Made by a program: the position numbers and the translations under genes
The notes under the pieces: generated by a model
The model's input: only the letters and a program-made list of their open reading frames with translations
What the model was told of the DNA's origin: nothing
Database searches by the model: none
Part shown: one piece after another, positions 9,331 to 37,779 of the stretch
Layout: every line of letters starts with the position of its first letter
Position numbering within the stretch: the stretch's first letter is position 1
Source of the DNA: Akkermansia muciniphila
Lineage (GTDB): Bacteria; Verrucomicrobiota; Verrucomicrobiia; Limisphaerales; SIBE01
Reading direction: 5' to 3'
Assembly (NCBI GenBank): GCA_945861765.1
Contig: CAMAWP010000025.1
Location: 1 to 37,779, forward strand
DNA length: 37,779 nt

Positions 9331-10839
9331 ATGACGTTCTATTCAATTCTTCGCAGCAGCTTGCTCCTTGCGCTCAGGTGCGCGTCCCCCTCGGCCAATG
9401 CCCATGACGAACCTGATGCACCGCGGCGTCCCGTGCCGGAGAAAGAAGTTCACCGGCCGAGCGCGCGGCCCGACCGCATCGTGCTCATGTGGACGGACGA
9501 CCCGGCAGTTTCCCAGGCCGTCACGTGGCGGACCGATGTGTCGGTCACACACGCCCTGGCCCAGATTGGTCTGGCGATCGACAAAGCGCAGGTTTCGACC
9601 CGCGAGGTCGAGGCGTGCACGACCGTCCTGGAGACGGATCTCGGCGCGGCGCATTGTCACACGGTCGAATTCCGAGACCTGGAACCAGGCGTCTTTTATG
9701 CCTACCGTGTCGGCGACTCGTTCAATTGGAGCGAGTGGTTCCATTTTCGCACGGCCCGCAGCGAACCGGCGCCGTTTACGTTCCTATACTTTGGCGACGC
9801 CCAGAACGATATCCGCACCCATTGGTCGCGCGTAGTGCGCGAAGCCTTCCGCGAGGCTCCGCGGGCGGCGTTCACACTGCACACAGGCGATCTGATCAAT
9901 CGAGCCCAGCGTGACGCCGAATGGGGCGAGTGGTTTGGTGCGCCAGCATGGGTTAACGCCACCATTCCCGTCGTCACCACTCCGGGAAATCAGGAGTACT
10001 TCAATTTGGGCGCTGGACCGGAAAACGAACGCATCTTGGAAACGAAGACCAACGGCGCGATCAAGGTCAAGGTCGAGTTGGTGAACGAGCGCAATGCCGC
10101 CGACAAGGTAACTGGTTACCGCGTCAAGGCAACACACGCGGATGGACGGACGGCGAACACTTCGTTTGATGCCGAGGGACACTTTAGGAGTGTGGATGCC
10201 GGCTTTACCGGACTTACCGGCTATACCTTGGCCGATTTGATCGAGCGCACCGCGGAAAACCAGCCCTTGCGCGATCGGATTGCCGTTCCTGGCGTGCGCA
10301 CCCTCAGCCGGCATTGGCGGCCGCAATTTGCGTTGCCGGGCCAGGGCCCGCGCGGCCTCGAGGAAAGCGTCTATTATTTCGATTACCAAGGAACGCGGAT
10401 CATTTCGCTGAACTCCAACGAACAACAGGAAACGCAGGGGGCCTGGCTGCGCGGCGTGCTGGTCCGAAACCCGCAGCGCTGGACGATCATCACGTTCCAT
10501 CATCCGATCTTCTCCCCGGCCAAGAAGCGGGACAATCCGCAATTGCGCGAGCAGTGGAAGGCGGTGTTTGACGAATTCAAGGTGGACCTCGTTCTGACGG
10601 GCCACGACCACACCTACGCCCGGAGCGGCGATATGTCGGGCCAGATGCGCGTCGGCACGGCGAACGTGCCCAAGGGCTACAATCAAGTCTATGATCCAAA
10701 GATCGGGACGGTGTACGTGGTATCGGTGAGTGGGCCGAAAATGTACGACCTTTCGAACGACTCATGGGCCGTTCGCACCGCCGAAGACACTCAGCTTTTT
10801 CAGGTGATCAGCATTGACGGCGACAGCCTGCATTTCTAA
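9331..10839 (+). CDS. purple-acid-phosphatase-like metallophosphoesterase, C-terminally interrupted
   Basis: 502 aa with an N-terminal secretion-like sequence, a fibronectin-III-like domain (RIVLMWTDDPAVSQAVTWRTD, residues about 49-140) and a calcineurin-like phosphoesterase domain. Metal-binding motifs are GDAQ (155-158), GDLIN (186-190), FHHP and GHDHTYAR. The usual GNHE motif reads GNQE, with Q221 in place of the His. A secreted phosphomonoesterase or phosphodiesterase role is expected from the family. The reading frame stops at TAA 10837-10839, but a recognisable C-terminal tail continues in the same frame (next entry). No good ribosome binding site is visible. The gene may be a recent pseudogene. 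Confidence 0.8.
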   Translation: MTFYSILRSSLLLALRCASPSANAHDEPDAPRRPVPEKEVHRPSARPDRIVLMWTDDPAVSQAVTWRTDVSVTHALAQIGLAIDKAQVSTREVEACTTVLETDLGAAHCHTVEFRDLEPGVFYAYRVGDSFNWSEWFHFRTARSEPAPFTFLYFGDAQNDIRTHWSRVVREAFREAPRAAFTLHTGDLINRAQRDAEWGEWFGAPAWVNATIPVVTTPGNQEYFNLGAGPENERILETKTNGAIKVKVELVNERNAADKVTGYRVKATHADGRTANTSFDAEGHFRSVDAGFTGLTGYTLADLIERTAENQPLRDRIAVPGVRTLSRHWRPQFALPGQGPRGLEESVYYFDYQGTRIISLNSNEQQETQGAWLRGVLVRNPQRWTIITFHHPIFSPAKKRDNPQLREQWKAVFDEFKVDLVLTGHDHTYARSGDMSGQMRVGTANVPKGYNQVYDPKIGTVYVVSVSGPKMYDLSNDSWAVRTAEDTQLFQVISIDGDSLHF

Positions 10840-16634: not shown

Positions 16635-16704
16635 ACTCCACAAGTTGACGCCATTTTCACAGCGCCGCAATCTCTTCGTCACGATGGTGGACTAGGCTGT
16701 CGTG

Positions 16705-17865
16705 ATGAAAATCAAAGCGTCTTTCTCCCCGCGGCCAACCGGCAAGGCCGCTTTCACCTTGATCGAACTGCTGGTCGTGATCGCCATCATCGCCATCCTC
16801 GCGGGCCTGCTTCTGCCAGCGTTGGGCCAGGCGAAGCTCAAGGCCCAGTCGATCAAATGTCTGAACAATCTCCGCCAGCTTGGTCTCTCGTGGGTCATGT
16901 ACGTTCACGACAATGACGACCGTCTTCCGCCGAACAACGGCAACTTGCCGGACGGATTCAACTCCGTGCGGGACCAGCATTACCCGCTTACGTGGGTGGC
17001 CGGATGGCTCGATCGCACACCGGTCTCGGATAACACCAATCAATTTTACCTGATGCGCCGCCATCTTTGGCCTTATCATCAGTCTGCCGCAATCTGGCGT
17101 TGTCCGGGCGATCGCAGCACGTCGCTGCACAATCGGACGGTTCTCCCTCGCGTTCGGAGCGTTTCCATGAGTAATTGGATGAACGGCACAAAACGCAGCG
17201 AATACAATCCGGGGAACAAGTTCACAATTTACACCAAGGCGTCGGAACTGGCCAATCTCGGCCCTTCGAAGATCTGGGTGCTCATTGATGAACGCGAGGA
17301 TAGCATCAACGACGGGTTCTTTCTCGTGGACATGATCGGGTATCCGAATCGTCCGGAGCAGAATTTCCTCTACGATGTGCCCGCCAGCTCTCATGGCGGT
17401 TCCGGCGCGTTGAACTTTGCCGACGGCCATTCGGAGCTCCGCCGCTGGGTCGATCCACGGACCCGCCCGAAGCTCACCGCAACCTCCTCCGCTCAACACC
17501 TCACCACACCGAACAACAAGGATGTCATCTGGCTGCAGGAACACAGCACCGCCGCCCGTTCATGGCTCGCGGCGATAAGCCGTCTCGGCGAGATGTTTCG
17601 CGTGACAGGTCCAGCGACCGTGGAACAAGCGCTGCTAACGGAGCGGATATTGCAGCCAACTAGCTCGCAGCGGCGTGCCGAGCGGATCTCCCAGTGGCGG
17701 ACGCTCCTTTCGCAGCCCCATCTCCTTGAGGAGCTTCACGACCCGATCAGGCCGGTCCGACTGGATGTAGTCGGCGCCCGCTTCCGCGGCGAGTCGCGCA
17801 TAGAACTCTGTGTCGGCTGTCTCCAGGCAGTTCACGAAGGCATGGCAGCCTCCGAGGTGGGCTGA
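16705..17865 (+). CDS. prepilin-like secreted protein (H-x9-DG type)
   Basis: 386 aa. The N-terminal type IV pilin-like signal [20 protein letters not shown] has Ala, not the usual Gly, before the Phe, with the conserved Glu5. The body is the PVC family with [19 protein letters not shown] and the C-terminal motif [21 protein letters not shown]. Family members normally end shortly after a DVIWLQ motif, which is here at about residue 275. The frame runs on for about 110 residues and overlaps the convergent GDPD gene by 231 bp. The extension therefore probably arose by loss of the original stop. A role as pseudopilin-like or surface protein is inferred; none of the family is well characterised. 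Confidence 0.8.
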
Positions 17866-18729
17866 CCGGACTGCTTCCTCCGTCACCGCATGCCAGTCCA
17901 GGTTGATCAACGCGGGCCGCAAATCGCGAATCAAGGCCCGCACCTGTTCGGGGTAATCGGCGGTGGGCCGCAGGCGGATGCCGGGCTCGATGCTGGCCAG
18001 TTCACGGCATCGCTCGTGCGGGCTGCAAAACGTCGAGGCTTCGACCATTTGTGTTTCCCGCACGACGGCGGCAAGCGCTTTCAAGTCCCCTTCTTTAAAA
18101 TCCAAATCCGCATCGATCTTTCCGCGCATGGCTTCGAGCGCTTCGCGCAATGTGGGCACCCGGATCACTTCCGCACTCGCACTGCGGATTTCCAATCGCC
18201 GGATCTGTTCGAGCGTGAGTTCACTCACCATGCCCTTGCCTTTGGTTGTGCGATCCACACGCGTGTCGTGCATCAGCACGAGGTGCCCGTCTTTGGTTTG
18301 CCGAATGTCGATCTCGATCAAGTCCGCGCCGACTTCGATCGCTCTTTGGATTGCGGGCAGTGTGTTTTCAGGGGGTCCCAACAACGCGCCTCCGCGATGC
18401 GCCACGACGCGGACACCGGGCCAGCGATAGGTGGTCACCCAGTCGCCTTCCTTTCCGGCGCGGGCTAGAGAAAGGAGGCGACCATGAACGGCCTGCACAC
18501 GCGCACGCATTCGGATGCCACCGCGTGAGGCGTCCACTCGGAAAACCGGCTCGCCGTCCTCGATCAACATGTTCACCGAGTCGGCCACGGCTCCCGTATG
18601 GAGTTCCGCGACGTGGATCGCTTCGAGTGATGTGATGCTGGGAGCATGTGGCTGAGCCGAGTGGAGCGTGGGTGCCGAGACGAGCGCCCACGGGATCAGC
18701 AGGAGTGAATACAAGCGGCATGATTTCAT
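17635..18729 (-). CDS. secreted glycerophosphodiester phosphodiesterase-family protein
   Basis: 364 aa from an ATG at 18727-18729, which gives a signal peptide ([19 protein letters not shown]). A 90-aa region of unknown function precedes the GDPD TIM barrel. The barrel shows [28 protein letters not shown] (metal/catalytic Glu, Asp and His), DADLDFKEG and [18 protein letters not shown]. GDPDs hydrolyse glycerophosphodiesters to glycerol-3-phosphate and an alcohol. The last ~20 residues and the 3' end overlap the tail of the convergent prepilin-like gene. Export suggests use of extracellular phospholipid head groups. Confidence 0.88.
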
Positions 18730-18806
18730 ATCGAGAAAACCGAAGCTTGGAGAAAAGGCACGTAGGTTGGGAGATCGAACCGAAAGTTTGCCGGCATCGC
18801 CGTTGT

Positions 18807-19577
18807 TTACAACCGCAGTTTCAGTTTGGCGCGCTGAAGCTCCAGCTTTTCCCCAATATCCTCTTGGTAAAAGTAAGCGTCGCGAGAGCCGCCAACATCC
18901 CAACTATGGATGAAGAGCATCTTCTCGAAGCGCATCCAGCTCGCAGACCCGTCCGAGTAGAGCTGATTCCCTCCCACTGGCAAGCGGCCGCTAGCGCCCG
19001 CGCGGTGTTGAGGCATGTCCTTGAATGCTGTATCTCGACCGCTGCCCCATTTGCCGTCAATCTTCATGATTGCATCGGCCGCGAGAACCCAGCCCGGCTG
19101 CGCTTGGCTAAGCTTGACGGGACTGCGCGAAGGGAATGACCCGGCCGGATTCATCCAAGTCCCAATTCCGCCGAAGTATTGGAACCCTATGATCCACTGC
19201 TCGTACTCACGTTCGTACTGCGGAAAAGTGGGACGGTTTGGGCACGTCCAAATGCTGGCCGTCCGGTTGCTTACAGTCAGGCCCAATTGTTGGACAGCGC
19301 GTTCCTCGGGAGGATTGAGAGCGATCTGGACGCTGCCGCCGCGGGCTTCGACGACTTTGTCCTTGTTGTCATCAGCGTAAATATGCATGCCAATGCCGAT
19401 CTGCCGAAGATTGTTCACGCACTTCACGCGCTTGCCTTTTTCCTTGGCGCTGCTCAAAGCAGGCAGGAGCATGCCGGCCAAAATAGCGATGATAGCGATC
19501 ACGACGAGCAACTCGATCAACGTAAAAGCTGCTGGAGAAGGGCGGTGTTGTTGCGGAGAGTTTCTTGGTGTCATCAT
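18807..19577 (-). CDS. prepilin-like secreted protein
   Basis: 256 aa from the first of two adjacent ATGs (19575-19577). N-terminal type IV pilin-like segment [21 protein letters not shown], again with Ala before Phe; then [19 protein letters not shown]. The C-terminal motif is degenerate: [19 protein letters not shown] in place of H-x9-DG. The gene is 77 bp upstream of the GDPD gene in the same direction and probably in one transcript with it. The pairing of a prepilin-like gene with a secreted hydrolase recurs in this window. Confidence 0.85.
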
Positions 19578-19720
19578 AGCGTGATAGAATTTAGAAAGGC
19601 CGACCATCTCCTTTCTACCTTAATCCTCAGGCGGCGCAAGTGACGACTTCGCGTCATTGTTATGGCGATTTGAAGGAGTCGATAATCGTGTCCGTTGTAA
19701 GAATTGACCATTTTTCTTTC

Positions 19721-20995
19721 TCATGATGATTTGGGAGCCGTTGTGGGAAATTTGCGGGCAAAGAGCCAACCCGCACACCCAAAGGCCAGCAGGGACGCAA
19801 TGACAACCACCCAGCTTGTGGCGGTAAAAAATCCAAGGAAATCGCCGTCGGCGCGCCAGACTCTTTTTCCCAACATCACGGCCACGTATCCAAGGTAGCC
19901 CATGGCATCCGCCAGGTACATGAGGTATCCGATGTTCGCGCGCTCACGGGTCAGAGCGATGAATCGCTCGAAAATCGTCGTGTGCACGGCGACGTACGGC
20001 ACATACATCCCCAGGCCGGATACGACCATGAACGCGAAGGGCGACATTTTGCCGGCGTTCAACGCTGACAAGGCCAGGACCACGAGGCCCAACCCTGCCA
20101 TGCACAAGAACAAGGCGAGAAAGAACGCTCGCCGGTTGTCACGAACCAGGCAGACCAAGCCGTTGATCGAGACCACGCCCAGCGCGACCCAAATCTCCGA
20201 CCGTGTGAAAACACCGGGTTGTCCCGTCGTGCCGAGACTTGCCCAAATTTCCGGGGCAAAATCCGCCCGAATGCTTCGCAAAACAGTGATCAGCAGATAC
20301 GCGAGAGTGATCAACCCCAGTCCGACTCCGTGCCGCCGTAACACCGCGAGCCGGTCCCCATGGGTCATGGGAGATCGTTCGGATCTGGCGGCGATGTCGG
20401 CGGCGGACGGCGCGGGGATTTGACGGAGCATCCAGACGAAGCCAGCCAGTGGCAGCACGAACAGGAGTCCCGCCCCAAAGGGCATCCAGCGTTCGGGGAT
20501 GCCGTGGTTCAGGAGCAGAGTGCCAACGGATTTGGTCACGCCATCGGCGAGGATAAAACTGGCGCAGAGTCCTGCCACGAAAGCTTCCGTAAGTCGGCGG
20601 CCCTCGAGAAAGCCCAGCACAAGCCCAAAAACCATCCCGAGGGCCAGGCCGTTGAAAAACAGCCACGCGGCGTTATAGGGCACGGGTGTGATCGCGAAAA
20701 GCAGCAGGGCCAGTTCTGCCATGCCCACCAGGCCAAGAAACATCCAGGCTCGACGCTCTGGTTTCATTTCGGCAATGATTCGAATGCCGACGAACTTGGA
20801 AACCGTGTAACCCAAAACTTGAGCTGTCACCAACCACGCCTTGAAACCGCCGCCCCAGGCTGAATCAGCATAAGCTCCGGCTGTGAATGGCTTGCGGAAA
20901 CCATACATGCAGGCGTAAGAGCCGAACGCCGCCAACATGCACCATATTGAGAGGAACCAACTCGTCTCGAGCCGCTCAGCGATCGGTGCATTCAC
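19721..20995 (-). CDS. MFS-type transporter (DUF5690-like)
   Basis: 424 aa, with a GTG start at 20993-20995. Many hydrophobic segments (for example WFLSIWCMLAAFGSYACMYGF, VVSGLGMYVPYVAVHTTIF, WVVVIASLLAFGCAGWLFA) give about 12 membrane helices. The N-terminus MYGFRKPFTAGAY and region YVPYVAVHTTIFERFIA fit the DUF5690 branch of the major facilitator superfamily. It lies 50 bp downstream of the PhnZ-like gene in the same direction, so a role in uptake of an organophosphonate or its product is an inference from context. A decayed copy of its 3' end occurs at 28114-28164. Confidence 0.82.
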   Translation of the reverse strand: MNAPIAERLETSWFLSIWCMLAAFGSYACMYGFRKPFTAGAYADSAWGGGFKAWLVTAQVLGYTVSKFVGIRIIAEMKPERRAWMFLGLVGMAELALLLFAITPVPYNAAWLFFNGLALGMVFGLVLGFLEGRRLTEAFVAGLCASFILADGVTKSVGTLLLNHGIPERWMPFGAGLLFVLPLAGFVWMLRQIPAPSAADIAARSERSPMTHGDRLAVLRRHGVGLGLITLAYLLITVLRSIRADFAPEIWASLGTTGQPGVFTRSEIWVALGVVSINGLVCLVRDNRRAFFLALFLCMAGLGLVVLALSALNAGKMSPFAFMVVSGLGMYVPYVAVHTTIFERFIALTRERANIGYLMYLADAMGYLGYVAVMLGKRVWRADGDFLGFFTATSWVVVIASLLAFGCAGWLFARKFPTTAPKSS

Positions 20996-21045
20996 AAGGT
21001 GTGGAAAGAATTCGGCGGACGCCAGTTTCCCACGGCCACAGTCTG

Positions 21046-21603
21046 CTACTTCGCGCTTCGCACAAACGGTTCCAGCGTGGTGCGAAACTCCTCGAAGTCC
21101 GGTATGGTCATGTTGGCCACTTTACCCAGATCGTCATAACGCCGGAGCCGCACGGCCGCCTCGTAGTGTGGGTGCCGCTCAAACTCGAGCGCCTCGGCCT
21201 CAGTCATGGGACCACCCTGCAATTGCAGACTTTTACGCGAGGCATCCGAGAGCCCCGCGTGATAGCCGGGTTCCTTCCAGCAAAGATATCGCTTGGCGGT
21301 GACGTGCAGGCGCACTGGTTCGACGACCTCCTCCACAAACAGGCGAGAGAGACCGTTAGCACCAATGTTTTCGTGCCGGGCGTCAACACCCAGATCGGCG
21401 ATGTCTTCGCCGAAATCATGGCAAAGATGACCGTAGTCGTGGAGAAGACAGGCGGCGACGACATGGGGCGCCTCTCCGGCCCGTTGAGCGAAGGTGGCGC
21501 ATTGCAGTGCGTGTTCGATCTCGGTCACGGACTCGCCGTAGTGCCGATGGCCGCGATCGCGGAAGCGGCGGAAGATGTCGTCAATTATCTGGGTCGAATT
21601 CAT
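21046..21603 (-). CDS. phnZ: PhnZ-like HD-domain oxygenase (phosphonate catabolism)
   Basis: 185 aa from the ATG at 21601-21603. It matches the phosphonate-associated HD family: Y22-G-E24 (HYGESVTEIEHALQ, lid Tyr and Glu by analogy with PhnZ), H31, H55-D56, H59 (LLHDYGHL), the RHE at 76-78, and H100 with K104 (RLHVTAKRYL). PhnZ uses a mixed-valence di-iron centre to cleave the C-P bond of 2-amino-1-hydroxyethylphosphonate, giving glycine and phosphate. Other family members act on related substrates. All visible ligands are intact. No phnY hydroxylase gene is seen in this window. Confidence 0.82.
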   Translation of the reverse strand: MNSTQIIDDIFRRFRDRGHRHYGESVTEIEHALQCATFAQRAGEAPHVVAACLLHDYGHLCHDFGEDIADLGVDARHENIGANGLSRLFVEEVVEPVRLHVTAKRYLCWKEPGYHAGLSDASRKSLQLQGGPMTEAEALEFERHPHYEAAVRLRRYDDLGKVANMTIPDFEEFRTTLEPFVRSAK

Positions 21604-26257: not shown

Positions 26258-26267
26258 ACGATAGGAA

Positions 26268-26287
26268 CGCGGATGCTCACATCCGCG
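26268..26287 (+). repeat. REP-like palindrome 1
   Basis: CGCGGATG-CTCA-CATCCGCG, preceded by ATAGGAA. Perfect 8-bp stem; same head sequence as the other copies. Confidence 0.85.
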
Positions 26288-26345
26288 AAAAGCTTGGCCG
26301 ATCGGCTGTCGCTAGAAAATTCTGCGGCAGCTTCAATTCAATTTC

Positions 26346-27035
26346 CTAAAGCGCGGATGTGGGCATCCGCGCTCCTATGTAGTGCGAGGCTCGCTTGCCA
26401 TGCTCCCGCCACCAGGCGCTGCTGAAGCGCCATTCCTCCGCTCTGCGCGCGAGGCGAGCCTTCACCGGATTGTTCTCGATGTAGCATATGGCCTTACGGT
26501 AGTGCTCCTGATCGCGTATGTATCGATCTCGATAATCCTCCTGCCAGAGTTGGCCCATCCGGCCAAGCAGGGCGTTGGCTCGTTGGCTCGTGAGGATTTT
26601 CCAACTATGCAGAAGTTTGCTCAACGGCGTCTGCCACATCTCCACCAGCAAGTGCACGTGGTTCGGCATGATAACCCATGCCAGCAAACGACATCGCAAG
26701 CCGTCATCGAACAGGAAAGTGCGCTCAACAGCCTGGGCCACATCTTCCAGACGCAGCAGGCACGAACCGTGTCCTTTGTCGAGATAAGCCTCCAATTCGA
26801 TTTGCTTCTGACGCTCGTCCTCGATTTGAAGCAGATGTTCCCATTCGCTGCGACGTGATGCCGGGAGGGAATCCGCAAGACGCCAGGTCAAGAACTGACG
26901 AAGGCCTGGAGCGTCAAAGTGCGGCAGGTAACCGCGGCTGTGCCAGCCACGAAATCCCTTGGCTTCCTCTTCCGGTGAGACTTGGCAATGCCATTCGCGT
27001 TTGACTTGGATCAGCCGCTGGATATTCGGGTTCAT
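26346..27035 (-). CDS. REP-associated tyrosine transposase (RAYT, Y1_Tnp)
   Basis: 229 aa from the ATG at 27033-27035; the longer frame would read through the upstream REPs. Y1/HUH signatures: the metal-binding His pair in WVIMPNHVHLLVE, and the downstream helix HYRKAICYIENNPVKARL containing the candidate catalytic Tyr. RAYTs nick and mobilise REP hairpins and are usually single-copy and domesticated. The C-terminus is encoded by REP 2. The frame is complete and no key residue is missing. Confidence 0.88.
   Translation of the reverse strand: MNPNIQRLIQVKREWHCQVSPEEEAKGFRGWHSRGYLPHFDAPGLRQFLTWRLADSLPASRRSEWEHLLQIEDERQKQIELEAYLDKGHGSCLLRLEDVAQAVERTFLFDDGLRCRLLAWVIMPNHVHLLVEMWQTPLSKLLHSWKILTSQRANALLGRMGQLWQEDYRDRYIRDQEHYRKAICYIENNPVKARLARRAEEWRFSSAWWREHGKRASHYIGARMPTSAL
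26350..26378 (-). repeat. REP-like palindrome 2
   Basis: On the minus strand: ATAGGAGCGCGGATGCCCAC and ATCCGCGCT, forming a 10-bp stem. It overlaps the last codons of the RAYT gene, whose C-terminus IGARMPTSAL is translated from it. Opposite orientation to copy 1. Confidence 0.88.
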
Positions 27036-27050
27036 CGTTCCTCCTCGGAG

Positions 27051-27070
27051 CGCGGATACCCACATCCGCG
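27051..27070 (+). repeat. REP-like palindrome 3
   Basis: GGAGCGCGGAT-ACCCAC-ATCCGCG: a 7-bp core stem, one mismatch from the consensus (GGATA instead of GGATG). It lies about 15 bp upstream of the RAYT start. Confidence 0.8.
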
Positions 27071-27118
27071 AGCTCGCTTGGGAGAACGTTGTATCCCATC
27101 GCGAAGAAAGTAGCAATA

Positions 27119-27143
27119 CGCGGATGTGGGCATCCGCGCTCCT
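27119..27143 (-). repeat. REP-like palindrome 4
   Basis: On the minus strand ATAGGAGCGCGGATGCCCAC followed by ATCCGCG; an 8-bp core stem, inverted relative to copy 3. It is just downstream of the 3' end of the neighbouring prepilin-like gene. Confidence 0.85.
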
Positions 27144-27156
27144 ATACATCCAGGCC

Positions 27157-27972
27157 TCAGTTCGTTGGCGCCACGCTGTTGCCATCCTGGCTGAGATTGA
27201 TGACCTCGATGTAGCGGTTGCGCTTGATAAATTCGGCGTGGCCGTCGCAGAAGTTCATGCATGTTCCGATCGCGCCATGATTGTCTTCAGGGTCCGGCCA
27301 ATTCCCATGCGTGCTTCCCACCGAACCCGACGTATCGTCACCATCTAACATCAACAGAACTTGTGTGGGACCGGGCACAGCGCCAAGGGCGCCCTTGTAT
27401 GATTTCACCGTGTAGCTCGCGAGAGTCCTTTCGGTTTTTTTGATTCCAGCATCACCCCCGATGACACCCCAGATTTCATAGCTGGTGCCGAACGTCTTTC
27501 GATTGATGGCATTGTTGCAGAGGTCCACCACCACTGGCTGAGTGGTACCCGGTTTCGAGACGGTGTTTGTGCGGATAGTGTTTCGCGTGGAAGGACAGAC
27601 GTAGCTGCCGAACGGCTGGACATACGACGGGTAAAGCCAGCTCGCGTCATCGTCGGTATGGTCGCGGTCGGTTTGCGGATTGATCCGGTTGAAACCGGGG
27701 AGCCAAGAGGGAGCCGTCAAGTGACCATTGAAATCCTGGGCGTAGAGCATGCTGCCCAAACCAAGTTGCTTGAGATTGTTAATGCATCCGATCCTCCGCG
27801 CGCGCTCCTTGGCTTTGGACATCGCCGGAAGGAGAAGCGAGGCGAGAATCGCAATGATCGCTATGACAACCAGAAGTTCGATCAAAGTAAAGCCACGTGT
27901 CCGCTCGACCACGTCCAGCATCCGCCGGCTAATGCGGTTCAAGCCTCGCCGGCCTTTAGTTTTGTGTTTCAT
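27157..27972 (-). CDS. prepilin-like secreted protein (H-x9-DG type)
   Basis: 271 aa. An N-terminal basic leader of ~26 residues is followed by [20 protein letters not shown] with the canonical Gly-Phe cleavage site and Glu5. Then come [21 protein letters not shown], an irregular middle, and the C-terminal [21 protein letters not shown] motif with conserved DG. Unlike the one at 16705 it ends 25 residues after the motif, as expected. It is followed by the REP/RAYT unit and is not obviously in an operon. Transport by a type II secretion/pilus-like machine is inferred. Confidence 0.87.
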
Positions 27973-28113: not shown

Positions 28114-28164
28114 TTATGGAAATCCGCGAGCCAAGAGCCAAGCCGCGCATCCTGGAAAGCCTCC
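28114..28164 (-). pseudogene. 3' remnant of a second MFS transporter gene
   Basis: Directly after the phnW stop and in the same frame, the minus strand reads GGFPGCAAWLLARGFP and TAA. This aligns with the end of the intact transporter (LAFGCAGWLFARKFP; 19721-20995). The rest of the gene is missing. It is short, but the protein match and position beside other phosphonate-cluster remnants support it. Confidence 0.65.
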
Positions 28165-28980
28165 TCACCACGGCACTGAGAATGTTTTCACCGTGGTCAT
28201 GCACTGCATGGCCTCAATGACGCCCGCTGTCTCCCCAACGGCCCAGAGCAAGCTCAGCACATCCGGCTCGAAAATTCGTCCGATAGATCCAATTCGAAAC
28301 GTGTCAGTCTGGCTGATCTTCCCGGGATAAATGATCATGTTCTTATCTGCAAGCCGGCGATAGAAGTCTGCGAACTGGAAACTGGAATCCTTGGGAAAAT
28401 GGAATGATGTGATGATGTAGCTTTGGACGTCAGGATCGAGGTAGGGTTGAAATCCTAGACGCTTGATGCCTTCCACCAAGATCGCGTGATTGGTTCGATA
28501 ACGGGCGGCTCGAGGATTTAGGATGCCGGTGGTGGTTTCGCAATGCACCACGATCCCATTCGTGATGCTTGGCTCATCCCGCAGAGCACTTCGAAGGGGA
28601 GCGAGATCCGGCGTTTCATTTTCCGGACTGCGAACCACGGTCACAGCAATTTTCAGGTGTGATGCGATCTGGACGATGCGTTCACCGTAAGCGCCGTTGG
28701 CCAGGACCAGGAGCCGTCCGTCCGGGGGCACCACCGACGCCATGACAGCTTCGACCCCGAACGTGCCGCTTCCTTGCATCAAAATGCTTACAAATCCGCT
28801 ACCAAGGGGCAATCCGGCAATTTCCAGAAGCTTTTCTCGAATACGCCGCACGACTTCGATGAATTCAAAGTGCCACGAACCGGCATCATGTAGCATCGCC
28901 TGCTTCACCAACAGGCTCCTGGTCAATGGACCGGGCCTGAACAGGGTTATGACTTGGGCGGGAGGGAGGTTTGGTTTCAC
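28165..28980 (-). pseudogene. phnW: 2-aminoethylphosphonate-pyruvate transaminase with internal deletion
   Basis: A 271-aa frame (GTG start) clearly related to PhnW: RPGPLTRSLLVKQAMLHDAGSW, LMQGSGTFGVEAVMASVVP, LLVLANGAYGERI, VHCETTTGILNP, then RAARYRTNHAILVEGIKRLGF and FRIGSIGRIF. Intact PhnW is about 365 aa. Between residue 156 (TGILNP) and 157 (RAARY), near 28512, about 95 residues are missing in frame. They include the PLP-contacting Asp (VDAMSSFG region) and the Schiff-base Lys. The product cannot be an active PLP aminotransferase. The flanking halves are well preserved, so the deletion may be recent. Confidence 0.85.
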
Positions 28981-29325
28981 GGTAGAGATTCGGCCTTGGC
29001 AAGACGACGACCCCTTGAATCATTCGCCACGAAGGGAGCCCGAAGTGGAGAAGCATACAAGGGCGAAGGTCCAGCGGACCAAAGCCCGCAAGAAGAGTGT
29101 GTTCAAAAGATGCTCTGATTTGAATTCTTTCAACATAATTTTCCTCTCAGAACTACAGCCATCGGCATTACCCGAAACTCGGCACACACAAATTCTCGAC
29201 ACTTGTCCATTCAAGTGAAGTCATAACCATGCGACAGCCACAGTTGTCACTTGGATTTAACAGCAATGTCATTGTGGGACCGAAACAATTTCACAACCGA
29301 ATGCTTTCATTGCCATGTCAGTCAC
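28981..29325. other. intergenic stretch between phnW and phnZ remnants
   Basis: About 345 bp. A 64-aa minus-strand frame (29020-29214) shows no recognisable domain and no ribosome binding site. It has lower GC than its surroundings. I see no RNA gene or terminator. It may be the scar of lost phosphonate genes. Confidence 0.4.
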
Positions 29326-29499
29326 CCTCCACAAACATTCGGGACAGACGGTTGGCGCCACTGTTTTCGTGCCGGGCATCGACACCTTGGTCGGCGATGC
29401 CTTCGCCGGATCGTGGCAAAGATGACCGTAGTTGTGGAGGAGACAGGCGGCGACGACACGGGGTGCCTCGCCGGCCTGTTGAGCGAAGGTGGCGCATTG
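29326..29499 (-). pseudogene. phnZ-like gene fragment
   Basis: The minus strand reads QCATFAQQAGEAPRVVAACL, then LHNYGHLCHD, and after a one-base deletion in the next frame GEGIADQGVDARHENSGANR. This matches residues about 35-92 of the intact PhnZ-like protein (21046-21603). The HD metal-ligand pair is changed to HN, and both ends of the gene are missing. DNA similarity to 21336-21507 is obvious by eye but far from identical, so it is not a fresh copy. Confidence 0.85.
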
Positions 29500-29540
29500 A
29501 CGGTTTCATTCCCAAGCGACCCGGCAATAGCGAGCGACCG

Positions 29541-30635
29541 TCAGCCCAGTGGAGAAACGCTCACGCGATGCCAGCGGCGCGACTCCGCTTCCGCGAAGGC
29601 CTCGTTCAAGCGCGCCAGCGGCCGCGGCGGGCTGACCAGTTCCGCCCAGGGGTGCGTTTCTTTTTGCTGCGACAGGAACGCGATAGCTGCGTCGAGGTGG
29701 CGTGGCGCGTAGTTGTGGAAACCGCGAATAGTCAGGCAGCGCCGGATGACAGCCTCGCCAGTGATGTTCAATGCGGACTCCGGATGAACCATGCCTACGA
29801 ACGCGTAAAACCCGCCCGAACGCAGGAGTTGAACTCCCTCCGTCACGACCGCCGGAGTACCCGCGACTTCAAAGACCGCGTCGGCTTCCCCGGGACGAAT
29901 GTGCTCGGTGGCCGTTCCGAGCGCGGGCTCACCGCCGAATTCGGCCACCCATTCCAGGCGTTTGAATTCTGTGTCCACGACGATGACGCGAGGCACGCCT
30001 TTGGCGCGGAGCAGAGCGCAGCCGTATAGGCCCAGCAACCCCGCGCCTTGGACAACAGCGAGGCGGCAAGGTCGAGGCAGCGATTCCGTGGCGGCGACCA
30101 TCGTGGCGAGAGCGCAGTTGGCGGGAGCGGCCACGGCATCGGACAACGAGTCTGGCACTCGCACCAGATGCGTTCCCGTGCGAAGCACGATATGGCTGGC
30201 ATAGCAGCCGTTCAGACCGGTGCCATCCTCCAGCCCGGCATGGCCATACTTGAAAAGCCGCGCACACTTCTGCGGCAGATCGAAATCCGCGCAAGCCGGA
30301 CAGGCGCCGCAACTGTCCGTCAGCGTCCAGGTCACGCGTTCGCCTGCGCGCCAATCCGCGCGCCGCACACCCACCGCAACGATGCGGCCCACTCCTTCGT
30401 GGCCGAGAACGCAGGGCGTTGGTTCAACTCTGCGTCCGCCCACCGTGTGCAGATCCGAGCCGCAAATTGTGGCGAGGTCTATTGCGATCAGCACTTCGCC
30501 ATCCGCCAGGCTCGCGGGCAGTGCTCGATCGGTGATGGAGAACGCTTTTCCCGGTCCGTGGAAAATGGCAGCTTTGGCGTCAGGCATTCGATGCGACATG
30601 GGTTGGACAGATCGAGAGGTTTCGCCTTCAATCAC
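29541..30635 (-). CDS. phosphonate-catabolism-type zinc alcohol dehydrogenase
   Basis: 364 aa from a GTG at 30633-30635, supported by AAAGGA seven bases upstream (the nearby ATG is followed at once by TGA). It is a medium-chain dehydrogenase: catalytic zinc Cys in ICGSDLHTVGG, GHEGVGRIVAVG, structural zinc cysteines in SCGACPACADFDLPQKC, and Rossmann GAGLLGLYGCAL. It resembles the clade found in phosphonate operons next to PhnZ-like proteins (TIGR03366 type). The adjacent phnZ and phnW remnants agree. Substrate is unproven. The gene appears intact while its former partners are broken. Confidence 0.85.
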   Translation of the reverse strand: MIEGETSRSVQPMSHRMPDAKAAIFHGPGKAFSITDRALPASLADGEVLIAIDLATICGSDLHTVGGRRVEPTPCVLGHEGVGRIVAVGVRRADWRAGERVTWTLTDSCGACPACADFDLPQKCARLFKYGHAGLEDGTGLNGCYASHIVLRTGTHLVRVPDSLSDAVAAPANCALATMVAATESLPRPCRLAVVQGAGLLGLYGCALLRAKGVPRVIVVDTEFKRLEWVAEFGGEPALGTATEHIRPGEADAVFEVAGTPAVVTEGVQLLRSGGFYAFVGMVHPESALNITGEAVIRRCLTIRGFHNYAPRHLDAAIAFLSQQKETHPWAELVSPPRPLARLNEAFAEAESRRWHRVSVSPLG

Positions 30636-31774: not shown

Positions 31775-32479
31775 TCAAGGATCGATGTCCCGCCGGACCC
31801 AGTTGGCCCGCATGTCGAGGTAAATCTGATTTCGTCCGCCTTTGTCACCGGACCAACCCTTTCTGGGCGGAACACTGCCTCCCACCGACCAGGAGCCGCT
31901 GAACTCCGGCCACCAGGCTTTTTCGAAGAACGGGCACATCAGCCATTCTTCCTCGGAAACGCTGCTGCCACGCTTGACCGCCACGCTTGCGGGAGTTCGT
32001 CCGCGCAGGAACCGGGCTTGCTCGGGATTCAATTCCGCCAGCTTGTCGCTGATATAATTGGCCCAACCTTTTTCGGGCCGGTCCGCGCCGGCTTCTTTCC
32101 ACGGACTGGCGAAATGCATCATCCAGGACTCGTTCGTCTTGAGCGGCGCGTTCGGACACAGCCAAACCCGGACTTCGCCCAGGTAGGGATGCAGCACCGG
32201 CATGAAAGAGTCCATGCCGTTGTAGCGTTTGCCGCCGGAGTTGACCGGCGGGGTCAGTTGCAGATGATCGTCCGCCACCCAAGGCATGAGGTCTTGGTGG
32301 TCGTCCAAATAAATAGTGGTGGCGATGCCGATCTGACGCAGGTTGGACAGACAACTCGTTCGCTTGGCGCGCTCCTTCGCCTGGGCCAGCGCCGGCAACA
32401 ACAGCCCCGCAAGAATCGCAATGATGGCAATGCACACCAGCAGTTCGATCAGCGTAAAGCCCGGTTCGTTCCGTTTCAT
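31775..32479 (-). CDS. prepilin-like secreted protein
   Basis: 234 aa from the ATG at 32477-32479. [25 protein letters not shown] has the Gly-Phe cleavage site and Glu5, with Cys in the hydrophobic stretch. Then [21 protein letters not shown]. In place of the H-x9-DG end there is the diverged [18 protein letters not shown], similar in layout to the protein at 18807-19577 ([15 protein letters not shown]). It starts 23 bp after the phosphoesterase gene 32503-34947 in the same direction, so a shared transcript is likely. The last codons run close to the intergenic hairpin. Confidence 0.85.
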
Positions 32480-32502
32480 GGCGTGCAAGGATAGGCGCGC
32501 CA

Positions 32503-34947
32503 CTAGCGCAAATGAAAGGCACGGACCGGCAGAGGCATTTCCGAATCCGCACCCTTCACGCTTTTCCAAATGATTTCATTGAGCGCGAACATGGGCGTCC
32601 GGTCGTAATCGCTGAAGTCCATCGCCATAGATTCTTGGGCGCCCCAGGCTGAAGCCAGATTGACGGCCTTCACGTCGATGCGCGGCTTTTCGTGGGTGTA
32701 GGGTTCGGAGTTGAGTTCAGCGCCGAACGAGGCATACATCGGCATGGCGGCAGCATCGTGTTGCGTCATCGGCGGCAGCCCCAGAAGCAGTTCCATGGTG
32801 CGGATCATGGATGACGTGGTGTAAAGCGTGGAGTCCACGATGCCGCGGCGGATGTAGGGGCTGATCACCAGGCCGACGGTGCGGCGCGCATCCACATGGT
32901 CCGATCCGTCTTGCGCGTCGTCTTCGATGACAAAGATTGCCGTTTCGTTCCAGTAGCGGCTATGCGAGACGCGATCGACCAGCAGGCCCAGCGCCCAATC
33001 ATTGTTCGCCACGGCCGCGGCGGGTGTGGGCACGCCCGGCCGCGTGCCCTGAGTGTGATCCTCTCCCAGGCTCATCACCACGAAATTGGGAAGGCGTTTG
33101 GCCGCGTTGGTAGAGTCGAAGTTTTTTTCATACTCGTCGAACTCCTCTATGAAAACCTTAACGTTGTCCGTATCGCGCATTCCGGGCAAACGAAACTTGG
33201 GAGAGACGTGACCAATGAGTCCGGCGATGCCACGCGCGGCGTCCATTTGTTCACCACCGCTTACCCGCGCGGCGTACTCGCCGTAGCTGCGATAGGTCAG
33301 CCCCTTGCGGGCCGCCTGGTCCCAGAGATGGCCGGACGACGGAATGTGAGCCGGGGCGGGCGACGCGCGGCTGATGCCGCCGTAGTTGGGAGGCCACAGT
33401 TTCTCATTGAAATCAGTCGCGTAGGCCGAGGTTGACCAGGAGTGTCCGTCCACGCTCACTTCGGCATCACAATAGAGATTGTCCAGGAGCACGAATTCTT
33501 CGGCGATCTTGTGGTGGTTCGGGGTCACTTCCCGTCCGAAAATGGTCAGGCGCGGATCTCCATTGCCTTTGGGGAGATCTCCCAGGACCTGGTCGTAAGT
33601 CCGGTTTTCTTTGATGATGTAAATGACATGCTTGATCGGGGAACCGGCGCCAACTTGCCGTGGAACCACCGATGGCCCCGAGACGGGCGGCCGGGCCTCG
33701 GCCAGCAGGCGGTCGTAGTACGGGGAATTGGCAATGGCTTGCCGCGTATGGGCCGCGATTTCATGCCGCAACTCCCCGAGCGGGATCGCGCTGATGCTGC
33801 CCTGTTGCAGGGATTTCACCGAGCCTCTTCCATCACGCTGGCCGTCGTCCTTCAATGGGCTGCGAGGACCCCGCACATTGGAATAGCCGCCCAGGCCTTT
33901 GCTGGACCCGACGAAGAGGGTCTTTCCATCCGCGCTCACCGAGAGGGCGGATGGATACCAAGCGGTCGGAATGAATCCCATGATTTGCGATTCATCGCGC
34001 TCGCCAACATGGATGACGGCGATGTTATTGTTGTCGGCGTTGGCGACAAAGAGCATCTTTTGGTCTGGATCAAGCGCGAGCGCGTTGGGCGTGGAACCGA
34101 CCGGGGCGCGTGGATGCATCGAGGTTCGCAGCACCTCCATCGCGCGCAGTTCACGAGTGTCGATCACATAGATGGAGTTCTCGTTCCCGCACGCGACGAA
34201 GAGCCTTCCGTCCCGCGAGAGGACCATGTCATTGGGGTTATGGCCGACGGCGATGGTAGCCTTGATCTGGTTCCGGACGGTGTCGATCACACTGACCGAG
34301 CGGCTCGACCAATTTGAGACGAACAGTGTTTCCGCGCTCTCATCCAGCACCACGTCATACGGGCTGATCTCAACCGGAATCTCCGCAACTCGCTCTCGGG
34401 TGTCCGTACGAAAGACGACCACCTCTGAAGGCTGGGCCGATGTGCCGCGGTTAGCCGCATAAAGAATCGGCCGTTTGGGGTGCAACGCCAGACCCGACCA
34501 GTAAATCTCGGTTCCCGGCAAACGATGCTCGAAGCGCGCCACAGGTTCCGGGTCGAGCCGTCCCTCGGCATAGGCAAAGGCATAGATGGGTGCGGCTCCG
34601 GGTTCCCGGCGGCTGGTGACGTTGCCCCCGGACACATAGAGGCGCGCACCGTCCTGGCTCCAGGCAAGCCCAAGCCAGCCGGACTTGAGCGGAATGGTTT
34701 GGCGGATTTCCCAGTCGCCCGGACTGACTACCACCAAGCCGTGCGGGTTGAATCCCGAGTGCAGGCCGATGACGCTGCGTCCGTCAGGCGCCTGCGTGAC
34801 GTTGAGCACGTAGTCCGGCGTGGTCGCGTGCCGACCGACTGGAGTCAGCCTCCAGCCGTTGGGGAGCAGTGTCGTGCCTTCGAAAGCCCCTGGCGTTTGA
34901 CCGAATACGGAGCCTATTCCAATGAGAGACAAAATTAATAGACGCAT
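32503..34947 (-). CDS. secreted YncE-type propeller / phosphoesterase-family protein
   Basis: 814 aa, start ATG at 34945-34947 with AAAGG upstream, signal peptide [16 protein letters not shown]. Residues about 25-380 form a YVTN-type propeller (repeats such as [17 protein letters not shown] and [17 protein letters not shown]). From about 430 it is the phosphoesterase family of the alkaline phosphatase superfamily (PF04185 type): [74 protein letters not shown]-type name: bifunctional YncE/alkaline phosphatase family protein. Substrate unknown; phospholipase C or phosphatase activity is possible. It lies in tandem with a paralogue at 35264. Confidence 0.9.
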
Positions 34948-35263: not shown

Positions 35264-37779
35264 CTAGTCGTCATCCCTATGACCGCGGACGAACGCTGCA
35301 CGGACGGGCGCAGGCATCGGCGATCCTGGGCCTTTAACGGAGCGCCAGACCACTTCGTTAAGCTGCAGATCATCGGCGGCATCTTCGCGGGCGAAATTCA
35401 TTTTCTCGGACAATTCCCTGCCCCAGGCCTGCGGGCTGTTCCGCTCTTGAAGATTCGCGCGAGGGGTCTCGGCCACGTAAGGACGCGGATCGGATCGCGA
35501 TTGAAAGGAGTTGAACATCGGCATGGCCGCGGCATCAAATTGCGACATGGGCTGCAATCCCAGAATTAATTCGATCGTGCGCAGCATGCTGGCGGTCGAA
35601 TACATCGTCGAGTCCACCGCGCCGCGCCGGCTGTAAGGGCTGATGGCATAGGCAATGGTCCGGTGTGCGTCAATGTGATCGGGACCATTCTGAGCGTCAT
35701 CTTCTACCACGAAGATGGCGGTTTGCGGCCAGAAGCGCGACCGCGAGACGGCTTCAACAACCCGGCCAAAAGCCAGGTCGTTTTCCGCCATAAATGCCGT
35801 GGGCGTTAGCTTGCCGACGCTGGTCCCGGAAGTATGGTCGTTCGGCAGCCGAACGATTTGGAGCCGCGGCATTTCTCCTTCGCGTTCAAAGCGCCCCAAT
35901 TCCGAGATGAAACGATCGGCGCGAGACAAATCGGAGTACTCCATGTCGAAACTGCGAAAGGCCGGATCGAAGTGGCCTTGCAACGATGGGACCAGCGTAA
36001 AGCACGGTTCATTCGTGGTCGCTCCGTTGTTGACGAATTCGCCGTAGCTCCGATAACTCACGCCGGCCTGGCGCGCGCGATCCCAAATATACCCGCCCGC
36101 CGGCTCTGCGATCTTGAACCGGCCTTCGCTGGGATAAGTGTACTTTCCACTCTTATTATGGCCGTAACTCATGGGCCACATCTTTTCGACGAAGTCGGTC
36201 GCATAGGCGCCCACGGACCATTCGTGGCCGTCAGCGCTGACTTCGCTCTCGACATAAAAATTATCCAGCAAGACAAATTCGCGGGCCAGCTTGTGGTGGT
36301 TGGGCGTGATGGCTTCGGGGAACAGGCACAGGCTCGGATCTCCGTTACCCTGCGGCATATCACCGAGGACCTGGTCGTAAGTCCGATTCTCTTTGATGAT
36401 GTAAATGCAGTACCGAATCGGACTGGCCTGGCCGAGCCGGACGGGAATTGGATGGCCCTTGTCCCGCGTCACGCGGTCGGCGGGCGGACGGGGTGGCGAG
36501 CAGCGCAGGCAGCGCTCCGTGTATTCGCGCATGCGTTCGTCGAATTTATCCGCGCCGGGAAGATCGATCACGCTGATGGTGCCTTGAAACAGGCCGCCAA
36601 TGTACTCCTGGACCGAGGCCGGCGGTTCGCGGCCGGGCTGAGGCCCGTATCGGTTTGCTTTCGAGATCACGCCTTTTCCGTTTGCCACGAGCAATCGGCG
36701 TCCGTCCGGCGTCAATCGCACGGAAGTGGGATACCAACCCACGGGAATGAAACCCAGCGAACGGCTTTTCCCCGGCGTAGCGACATCGAAGACAGCGACC
36801 GCATTGATGTTAGCATTCGCCACGAAGAGTCGCGATTCGTCCGGCGAAAGCGCCAGGCTGTTGGGAGTCGATCCAGGAGGTGACGCCGGATCAAGAGCCG
36901 CCGTGAGTTTCTCGATGGTTCGACCGCTTTCGGTGTCGATGACGCTGACGGTGTTGCGATTGGCATTCGCGACGAAGAGGTGGCGTCCCGATCGGCTCAG
37001 AATCATTTCATTCGGATGTTCCTCAGTCGGCCATCGGGTCATCAATTGATCGGTTTTGAGATCGATAACCTGGACGGCGGACTGCGCCCAGAGGCTGACG
37101 TAGAGGCGTTGCCGCGCTTCATCCACGACGCACGCATACGGATAGGGAGCGCGCTCATTCAGCACCTCGAGCAACGCACGGGCGCGCTTGGTGACGGCAT
37201 CGTTATCCACATCGCGCAACGGATCCTGCTCTTGGACTGCCGGGACCAAGCCCGAATCCGCCAACGCGATGTCGCCCAAGGTGCGTTGCGCTTCGAGATC
37301 GACCTTGCTCACCGACTGCGCCAGCAAATTGACGGCCCAGAGTCGTTTTCCATTCTGATCGATCGCCAACCCCGCCGGGACGCCACGCTCTCGAACGTCC
37401 CGGAGCGCGATGGTTCGATGCCCAAAGAGATGGCCGGCGCGAAAATCGAAGACGTGGATCGCTTCGAGGCCGGCACCGCTGGCGTACAGGTGTTCTCCGT
37501 TCCGCGAAAAGACGATCCCATAAAACGACTCGTCCAAATTTGCCCGAGAGACGATCTTGAGCGTCTTCAAGTCCAGGACCGCAATCTCATGAGGTCCATA
37601 ACCACAGTGCAACACCGCCGCGTACTGGCCGTCGGGGTGGACCACAATCTGAACCGGGAAATCTCCGACGACAATCTGGCGCCCCACAGGATTCAACGAC
37701 CATTGGTTGGGAAGCAGCACCGAGCCGTCGGCCCGGGGACCAGGGAATACGCCCGCGCTCGAACGCTCCGCCGGTGTCG
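35264..37779 (-). CDS. YncE-type propeller / phosphoesterase-family protein, 5' end outside window
   Basis: At least 838 aa. The frame is open to the window edge (TPAERSSAGVFPGPRADGSV before the internal GTG at 37720), so the true start and any signal peptide lie beyond 37779. It has propeller repeats (LFVANANRNTVSVIDTESG, LFVANANINAVAVFDV), then the phosphoesterase domain: [74 protein letters not shown]. The middle contains CLRCSPPRPPADRV, absent in the paralogue. Clearly a paralogue of 32503-34947, with the same order of domains. Ends in the acidic-tailed RGHRDDD. Confidence 0.9.
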   Translation of the reverse strand, partial: TPAERSSAGVFPGPRADGSVLLPNQWSLNPVGRQIVVGDFPVQIVVHPDGQYAAVLHCGYGPHEIAVLDLKTLKIVSRANLDESFYGIVFSRNGEHLYASGAGLEAIHVFDFRAGHLFGHRTIALRDVRERGVPAGLAIDQNGKRLWAVNLLAQSVSKVDLEAQRTLGDIALADSGLVPAVQEQDPLRDVDNDAVTKRARALLEVLNERAPYPYACVVDEARQRLYVSLWAQSAVQVIDLKTDQLMTRWPTEEHPNEMILSRSGRHLFVANANRNTVSVIDTESGRTIEKLTAALDPASPPGSTPNSLALSPDESRLFVANANINAVAVFDVATPGKSRSLGFIPVGWYPTSVRLTPDGRRLLVANGKGVISKANRYGPQPGREPPASVQEYIGGLFQGTISVIDLPGADKFDERMREYTERCLRCSPPRPPADRVTRDKGHPIPVRLGQASPIRYCIYIIKENRTYDQVLGDMPQGNGDPSLCLFPEAITPNHHKLAREFVLLDNFYVESEVSADGHEWSVGAYATDFVEKMWPMSYGHNKSGKYTYPSEGRFKIAEPAGGYIWDRARQAGVSYRSYGEFVNNGATTNEPCFTLVPSLQGHFDPAFRSFDMEYSDLSRADRFISELGRFEREGEMPRLQIVRLPNDHTSGTSVGKLTPTAFMAENDLAFGRVVEAVSRSRFWPQTAIFVVEDDAQNGPDHIDAHRTIAYAISPYSRRGAVDSTMYSTASMLRTIELILGLQPMSQFDAAAMPMFNSFQSRSDPRPYVAETPRANLQERNSPQAWGRELSEKMNFAREDAADDLQLNEVVWRSVKGPGSPMPAPVRAAFVRGHRDDD

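Follow-up and report, generated by a model that had tools for sequence, protein, structure and literature searches.

Phosphonate genes of the window

The stretch of DNA analyzed here (37,779 nt, hereafter the window) comes from an assembly deposited as Akkermansia muciniphila (GCA_945861765.1, contig CAMAWP010000025.1, positions 1-37,779, forward strand; GTDB lineage Bacteria; Verrucomicrobiota; Verrucomicrobiia; Limisphaerales; SIBE01). The source genome (G000) comprises 7.27 Mb in 556 contigs and is 96% complete with 5.9% contamination. Two groups of phosphonate genes are present on the minus strand of the window, namely cluster A, an intact phnZ with a DUF5690 gene at 19721-21603, and cluster B, hpnZ with gene relics at 28118-30635. 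Cluster A lies ~7 kb beyond cluster B in the same direction. Cluster B consists, in order, of hpnZ, a 174-bp piece of phnZ, a 345-bp spacer, an open reading frame (ORF, 28165-28980) and a DUF5690-like stretch.

Positions 8400-37779 probably form an accessory region rich in phosphorus-scavenging genes, the phosphonate genes among them. The region also includes a purple acid phosphatase (9331-10839), a GDPD phosphodiesterase (17635-18903) and, in tandem, two paralogs of a beta-propeller/PF04185 phosphoesterase (32503-34947 and 35264-37720). A REP-associated tyrosine transposase (26346-27185) is located between the two clusters, and its flanks (26261-26378 and 27047-27145) carry paired inverted REP-like elements of the GCGGATGTGGGCATCCGCG type that form strong hairpins. 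A tmRNA gene is found at the contig start (5-359, minus strand; Rfam RF00023, 186.6 bits). Prepilin-type genes are scattered in the window (16702-17865, 18807-19607, 27157-27972, and 31775-32569); the two that come directly after clusters A and B were considered as part of one duplication with them, which was rejected because only the conserved N-terminus matches.

The hpnZ gene (29541-30635, minus strand) is intact and encodes a zinc-type alcohol dehydrogenase associated with phosphonate clusters (TIGR03366, E 3.5e-93), in agreement with the initial annotation, which had placed an intact phosphonate-type dehydrogenase here. All columns invariant in seven orthologs are kept. Translation probably begins ~50 bp into the longest ORF, at the ATG of 'MPDAK'. 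The protein scores 312.3 bits against the curated cut-off of 328.1, yet this cut-off was passed by none of the 58 genomes searched, and the orthologs, like this gene, are co-located with phosphonate genes in the same kind of clusters; it is therefore called hpnZ-type here rather than a certified TIGR03366 member. The nearest known copies, 57-65% identical, are from Verrucomicrobiota, within which the HpnZ tree gave the window copy no firm placement, and no plasmid-borne HpnZ was found at E 1e-60. An identity of HpnZ with the NAD-dependent racemase PbfF was rejected, since PbfF is a pfam02826 protein. No characterized HpnZ member was found in the literature searched.

Cluster A contains, as also annotated initially, intact phnZ and MFS genes in the same direction as cluster B. 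The HD-domain phosphonate oxygenase gene phnZ (21046-21603, minus strand) reaches 219.9 bits against the TIGR03276 cut-off of 214.6, and all invariant family columns are present. The DUF5690 gene (19721-20995, minus strand) matches PF18943 over the full profile (1-382 of 382) and above the gathering score (446.7 bits, E 8.5e-134). Contig C21 of the same genome carries, together and intact, phnW, which exceeds the curated cut-offs, phnA (TIGR02335, 510 bits) and phnY (TIGR03250, 657 bits). A further DUF5690 gene of this genome, a distant paralog with 35% identity, is located at the end of another contig (C66, 22299-23516, L147), and genes like it precede phnW in G120 and G072.

Hydrolytic breakdown of 2-aminoethylphosphonate is carried out by PhnW, PhnY and PhnA, and PhnZ performs the oxidative cleavage of (R)-1-hydroxy-2-aminoethylphosphonate (PMC8154272). 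The intact proteins (HpnZ, PhnZ and DUF5690 of cluster A, and PhnW, PhnA and PhnY of C21) would still be fit for 2-aminoethylphosphonate breakdown via PhnW-PhnY-PhnA, and PhnZ would cleave oxidatively a 1-hydroxyphosphonate such as (R)-1-hydroxy-2-aminoethylphosphonate.

Relics in cluster B

The phnZ piece (29326-29499, minus strand) matches window positions 21330-21504, within the intact phnZ, with 86.9% identity across 175 bp (E 2e-55). It keeps 58 of 198 codons (approximately codons 47-104), and both ends of the gene are gone. Alignment of the two copies bore out the lesions described earlier, a one-base deletion causing a frameshift and the change of the metal-ligand HD to HN. Lacking the HD ligands and the full-length fold of TIGR03276, this fragment is a pseudogene and not a PhnZ family member. 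The divergence of the two copies is dS 0.41 and dN 0.064 (57 codons); the fragment is so short that the deeper branches of a tree built from it are not resolved.

The ORF at 28165-28980 (minus strand) had been read as a phnW lacking ~95 residues. That phnW is broken was confirmed, but the ORF is composed of three in-frame pieces, the last of which belongs to another gene. The N-terminal part of phnW (28513-28980) covers TIGR03301 positions 2-143 and the C-terminal part (28228-28512) positions 260-354, the two being joined in frame; thus 116 residues (positions 144-259) are lost, including the SPNKC motif, which carries the PLP lysine of the family. Scores of 259 and 253 bits against cut-offs of 400.8 (TIGR02326) and 360.8 (TIGR03301) place the product outside PhnW, a family that requires a full-length class V aminotransferase with the PLP lysine. 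The third piece (28165-28227), fused in frame to phnW, represents the last ~20 codons of the phosphonoacetaldehyde dehydrogenase gene phnY. It reads GVIEAMQCMTTVKTFSVPW against GVIEAIKCMTTVKTFSLPW in PhnY of C21, each ending at the same stop codon position; 61 bp (28165-28225) align to the C21 gene, and tblastn against the whole window as search space matched PhnY at 28239-28168 (E 8e-7). With only this end of the aldehyde dehydrogenase domain, the piece falls outside PhnY (TIGR03250).

The N-terminal part of the phnW relic shares 74% amino acid identity with PhnW of C21. Between the relic and the C21 gene there are 35, 30 and 124 differences at codon positions 1, 2 and 3, respectively, with dS 1.9 and dN/dS 0.07; for the phnY tail dS is 1.3 (19 codons). 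The low dN/dS indicates that most of the divergence was gathered while the gene was functional and that the erosion is recent. Four columns that are invariant in the other sequences are changed in the relic, the highest count among 31 sequences (next highest, three). These changes, together with the mostly silent divergence, fit a recent loss, and the excess of four over three is slight.

The spacer (28981-29325) has a low G+C content (0.475). It gave no other match in its own genome, C21 included, no tblastx match to any of the fetched loci and nothing convincing by tblastn or blastn, and it contains no relic of DUF5690, AP, phnA or another cluster gene. Beyond the phnY tail, no hpnZ, phnA, phnY or AP relics were detected elsewhere in the window. 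The cluster ends with the probable 3' tail of a DUF5690 (MFS) gene (28118-28152, minus strand), in which 28 of 35 bases equal the 3' end of the intact gene (GCAAWLLARGFP against GCAGWLFARKFP). The earlier reading of this stretch as the tail of an MFS gene gained support, as its score was reached by none of 2000 dinucleotide shuffles and none of 1182 other window segments, but at 35 bp (14 amino acids; E 0.25 against the whole window) the tail is too short to be called more than probable. Its dS of 0.54, from 11 codons only, is in the class of the phnZ pair.

Gene order in related genomes

Two genomes of the same genus also have the phnW-phnA-phnY operon of C21, with protein identities of 93-98% in G001 and 77-79% in G002. 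Neither phnZ nor a close hpnZ match was found in these genomes; the absences in G001 weigh little because it is only 60% complete, compared with 92% for G002. In other related genomes, several arrangements were observed. G013 has AP-phnW-...-phnA-phnY-hpnZ-phnZ-DUF5690 as a single island in one direction, G123 has AP-phnA-phnY-hpnZ-DUF5690-phnW, G045 has hpnZ-phnZ-DUF5690-phnW, G140 and G142 have hpnZ-phnZ-DUF5690, and in G040 phnA-phnY-hpnZ is found at one place and phnZ-DUF5690 at another. DUF5690 directly follows phnZ in cluster A, and the same pair order occurs in G040, G013, G140, G142 and G045.

A search with an HpnZ alignment gave 80 public loci. In 24 of these, all from Verrucomicrobiota, DUF5690 comes after hpnZ and shares its strand, with phnZ between them in 9, absent in 14 and divergent in 1; no phnZ relics were found between hpnZ and DUF5690 in the 14 loci without phnZ. 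Linkage of DUF5690 (PF18943) to hpnZ or phnZ was recorded at L186-L203, L206, L208, L209, L219, L231, L239 and L245, and further at L060, L062, L064, L067, L069 and L142. These gene orders show that in phosphonate clusters of Verrucomicrobiota hpnZ and the uncharacterized DUF5690 gene travel together while phnZ is variable. No paper naming DUF5690 was found in the literature searched; this and the linkage to hpnZ make a role in phosphonate uptake a testable hypothesis, with the DUF5690 MFS family as a candidate phosphonate transporter.

Proposed origin and decay of cluster B

Behind the intact hpnZ, remnants of three, probably four, known cluster genes follow one another on a single strand. 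We consider it highly probable that a redundant island of phnWAY and hpnZ/phnZ/DUF5690 genes collapsed recently, through nested deletions and point changes, to give cluster B. The cluster would once have held intact hpnZ, phnZ, phnW, (phnA) and phnY, and probably the DUF5690 transporter gene. Its phnW-phnY part would be a paralog of the phnW-phnA-phnY operon of the genome, arisen within the genus: in the PhnW tree the relic falls inside the genus as sister to the G000 and G001 genes and apart from G002 (support 99/95), and holding the three intact genus genes together without the relic was weakly rejected by the AU test (p 0.044). The phnZ and DUF5690 parts of cluster B would have their paralogs in the two intact genes of cluster A (19721-21603). 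With intact copies elsewhere, everything in cluster B apart from hpnZ may have been redundant, so that selection lapsed, and a few nested deletions with point changes could have removed most of the cluster, leaving hpnZ intact at its head. The starting point may have been two phnW-phnA-phnY-hpnZ-phnZ-DUF5690 islands, built as in G013 and lying head to tail in tandem or next to each other, from which the order hpnZ-phnZ'-phnW'-phnY'-DUF5690' is obtainable by deletions alone. A phnW-phnY block inserted between phnZ and DUF5690 would give this order as well; the tandem step is not needed for the data, which counts against it. The open frame across both junctions of the ORF (by chance ~1 in 9), the lack of an origin for the spacer, the shortness of the DUF5690 tail and the small size of the excess at invariant columns are also counted against collapse. 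A search for repeats where the deletions end gave nothing convincing. The relatives yielded no cluster half decayed in the same way; the erosion is thus not tracked stepwise, and this too counts against the collapse.

The initial annotation proposed that an ancestral dehydrogenase-phnZ-phnW-MFS operon was duplicated or recombined, the two clusters now keeping complementary parts. Taken as one duplication followed by complementary losses, this would account for phnZ, and probably DUF5690, being present in both clusters. However, the order hpnZ-phnZ-phnW-MFS occurs neither in the clusters of the relatives compared nor in the 80 public loci, where (phnW-)phnA-phnY-hpnZ-(phnZ)-DUF5690 or hpnZ-phnZ-DUF5690-phnW is seen instead; no remnant of hpnZ or phnW was detected in cluster A, where phnZ and DUF5690 are spaced as usual. 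The ages also disagree, the phnW and phnY pieces (dS 1.3-1.9) being much older than the phnZ pair (0.41). The two divergence classes, 0.41-0.54 and 1.3-1.9, thus indicate a mosaic and not one copying event, and B is no copy of A, which makes a single duplication highly improbable. The retention of complementary parts holds insofar as B keeps hpnZ and A keeps phnZ and DUF5690, but the complement of the broken phnW is the C21 operon, outside the window. The description of an operon erosion caught midway was upheld: a second phosphonate cluster is eroding beside an intact partial one.

Could the deletions be mis-joins of strain variants in a metagenome assembly? Such an artefact is compatible with the 556 contigs and 5.9% contamination, with the clean, in-frame joints and with the lack of an orthologous neighborhood in G001 and G002 for the window beyond ~8.4 kb. 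Against it, a divergence of 13-26% separates the relics from all other copies in the genome, and assembly collapse does not explain this (the argument applies to the relics, the deletion joints being a separate matter), and the phnZ relic also bears point changes and a frameshift. Moreover, the contig start (552-2357) is 97% identical to G001 and ~2.4-8.3 kb is collinear with contig C34 of G002, which assigns this end to the genus. Past ~8.4 kb no neighborhood is shared with G002 and the G+C content rises from ~0.53 to 0.56-0.60; this part is best seen as an accessory region, a mis-join being less likely. Overall, an artefact is highly improbable. Instead of a dying gene, the 271-codon phnW-phnW-phnY fusion might be one whose product is expressed and kept by selection for a new role, as its frame is open over both junctions, dN/dS is 0.07, and G114 (C299) likewise has a phnZ shortened in frame by an internal deletion, along with an intact phnZ elsewhere in that genome. 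But the protein has lost a third of its length and its PLP lysine, the changes at invariant columns are the most among the 31 sequences, the adjoining phnZ relic is plainly dead, and a low dN/dS is expected anyway if the deletion is recent. Selection of the fusion is accordingly regarded as extremely unlikely, and it is scarcely credible that this fusion and the G114 deletion reflect a recurring making of shortened phosphonate enzymes with a selected new role.

Read as a recent collapse, the locus is a clear but fairly ordinary gene loss, and a fresh example of operon decay with good internal controls. It offers a roughly datable snapshot of operon loss, with relics of two ages that can be set against intact paralogs of this genome and intact clusters of relatives. 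A parallel is found in G114, where a phnZ (C299, L159, 743-1100) that lacks an internal stretch but stays in frame lies between hpnZ and DUF5690 and the phnZ on C160 is intact. Like cluster B, it is a defective phnZ after hpnZ in a genome with another, intact phnZ; unlike cluster B, it has a single in-frame internal deletion, and the adjoining DUF5690 is intact. Compared with the hpnZ-(phnZ)-DUF5690 clusters of Verrucomicrobiota, the gene content, strand and order hpnZ-phnZ-DUF5690 are as here, but cluster B has phnW and phnY relics between phnZ and the DUF5690 tail, and cluster A is without hpnZ. In a survey of hydrolytic phnWAY clusters, phnZ was present alongside as an accessory gene in 24 of 75 cases (PMC8154272), often adjoining them, and phnW, phnA, phnY and phnZ are likewise found in one genome here. 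This genome differs in that its second set is no longer whole and its intact genes are divided between two places.
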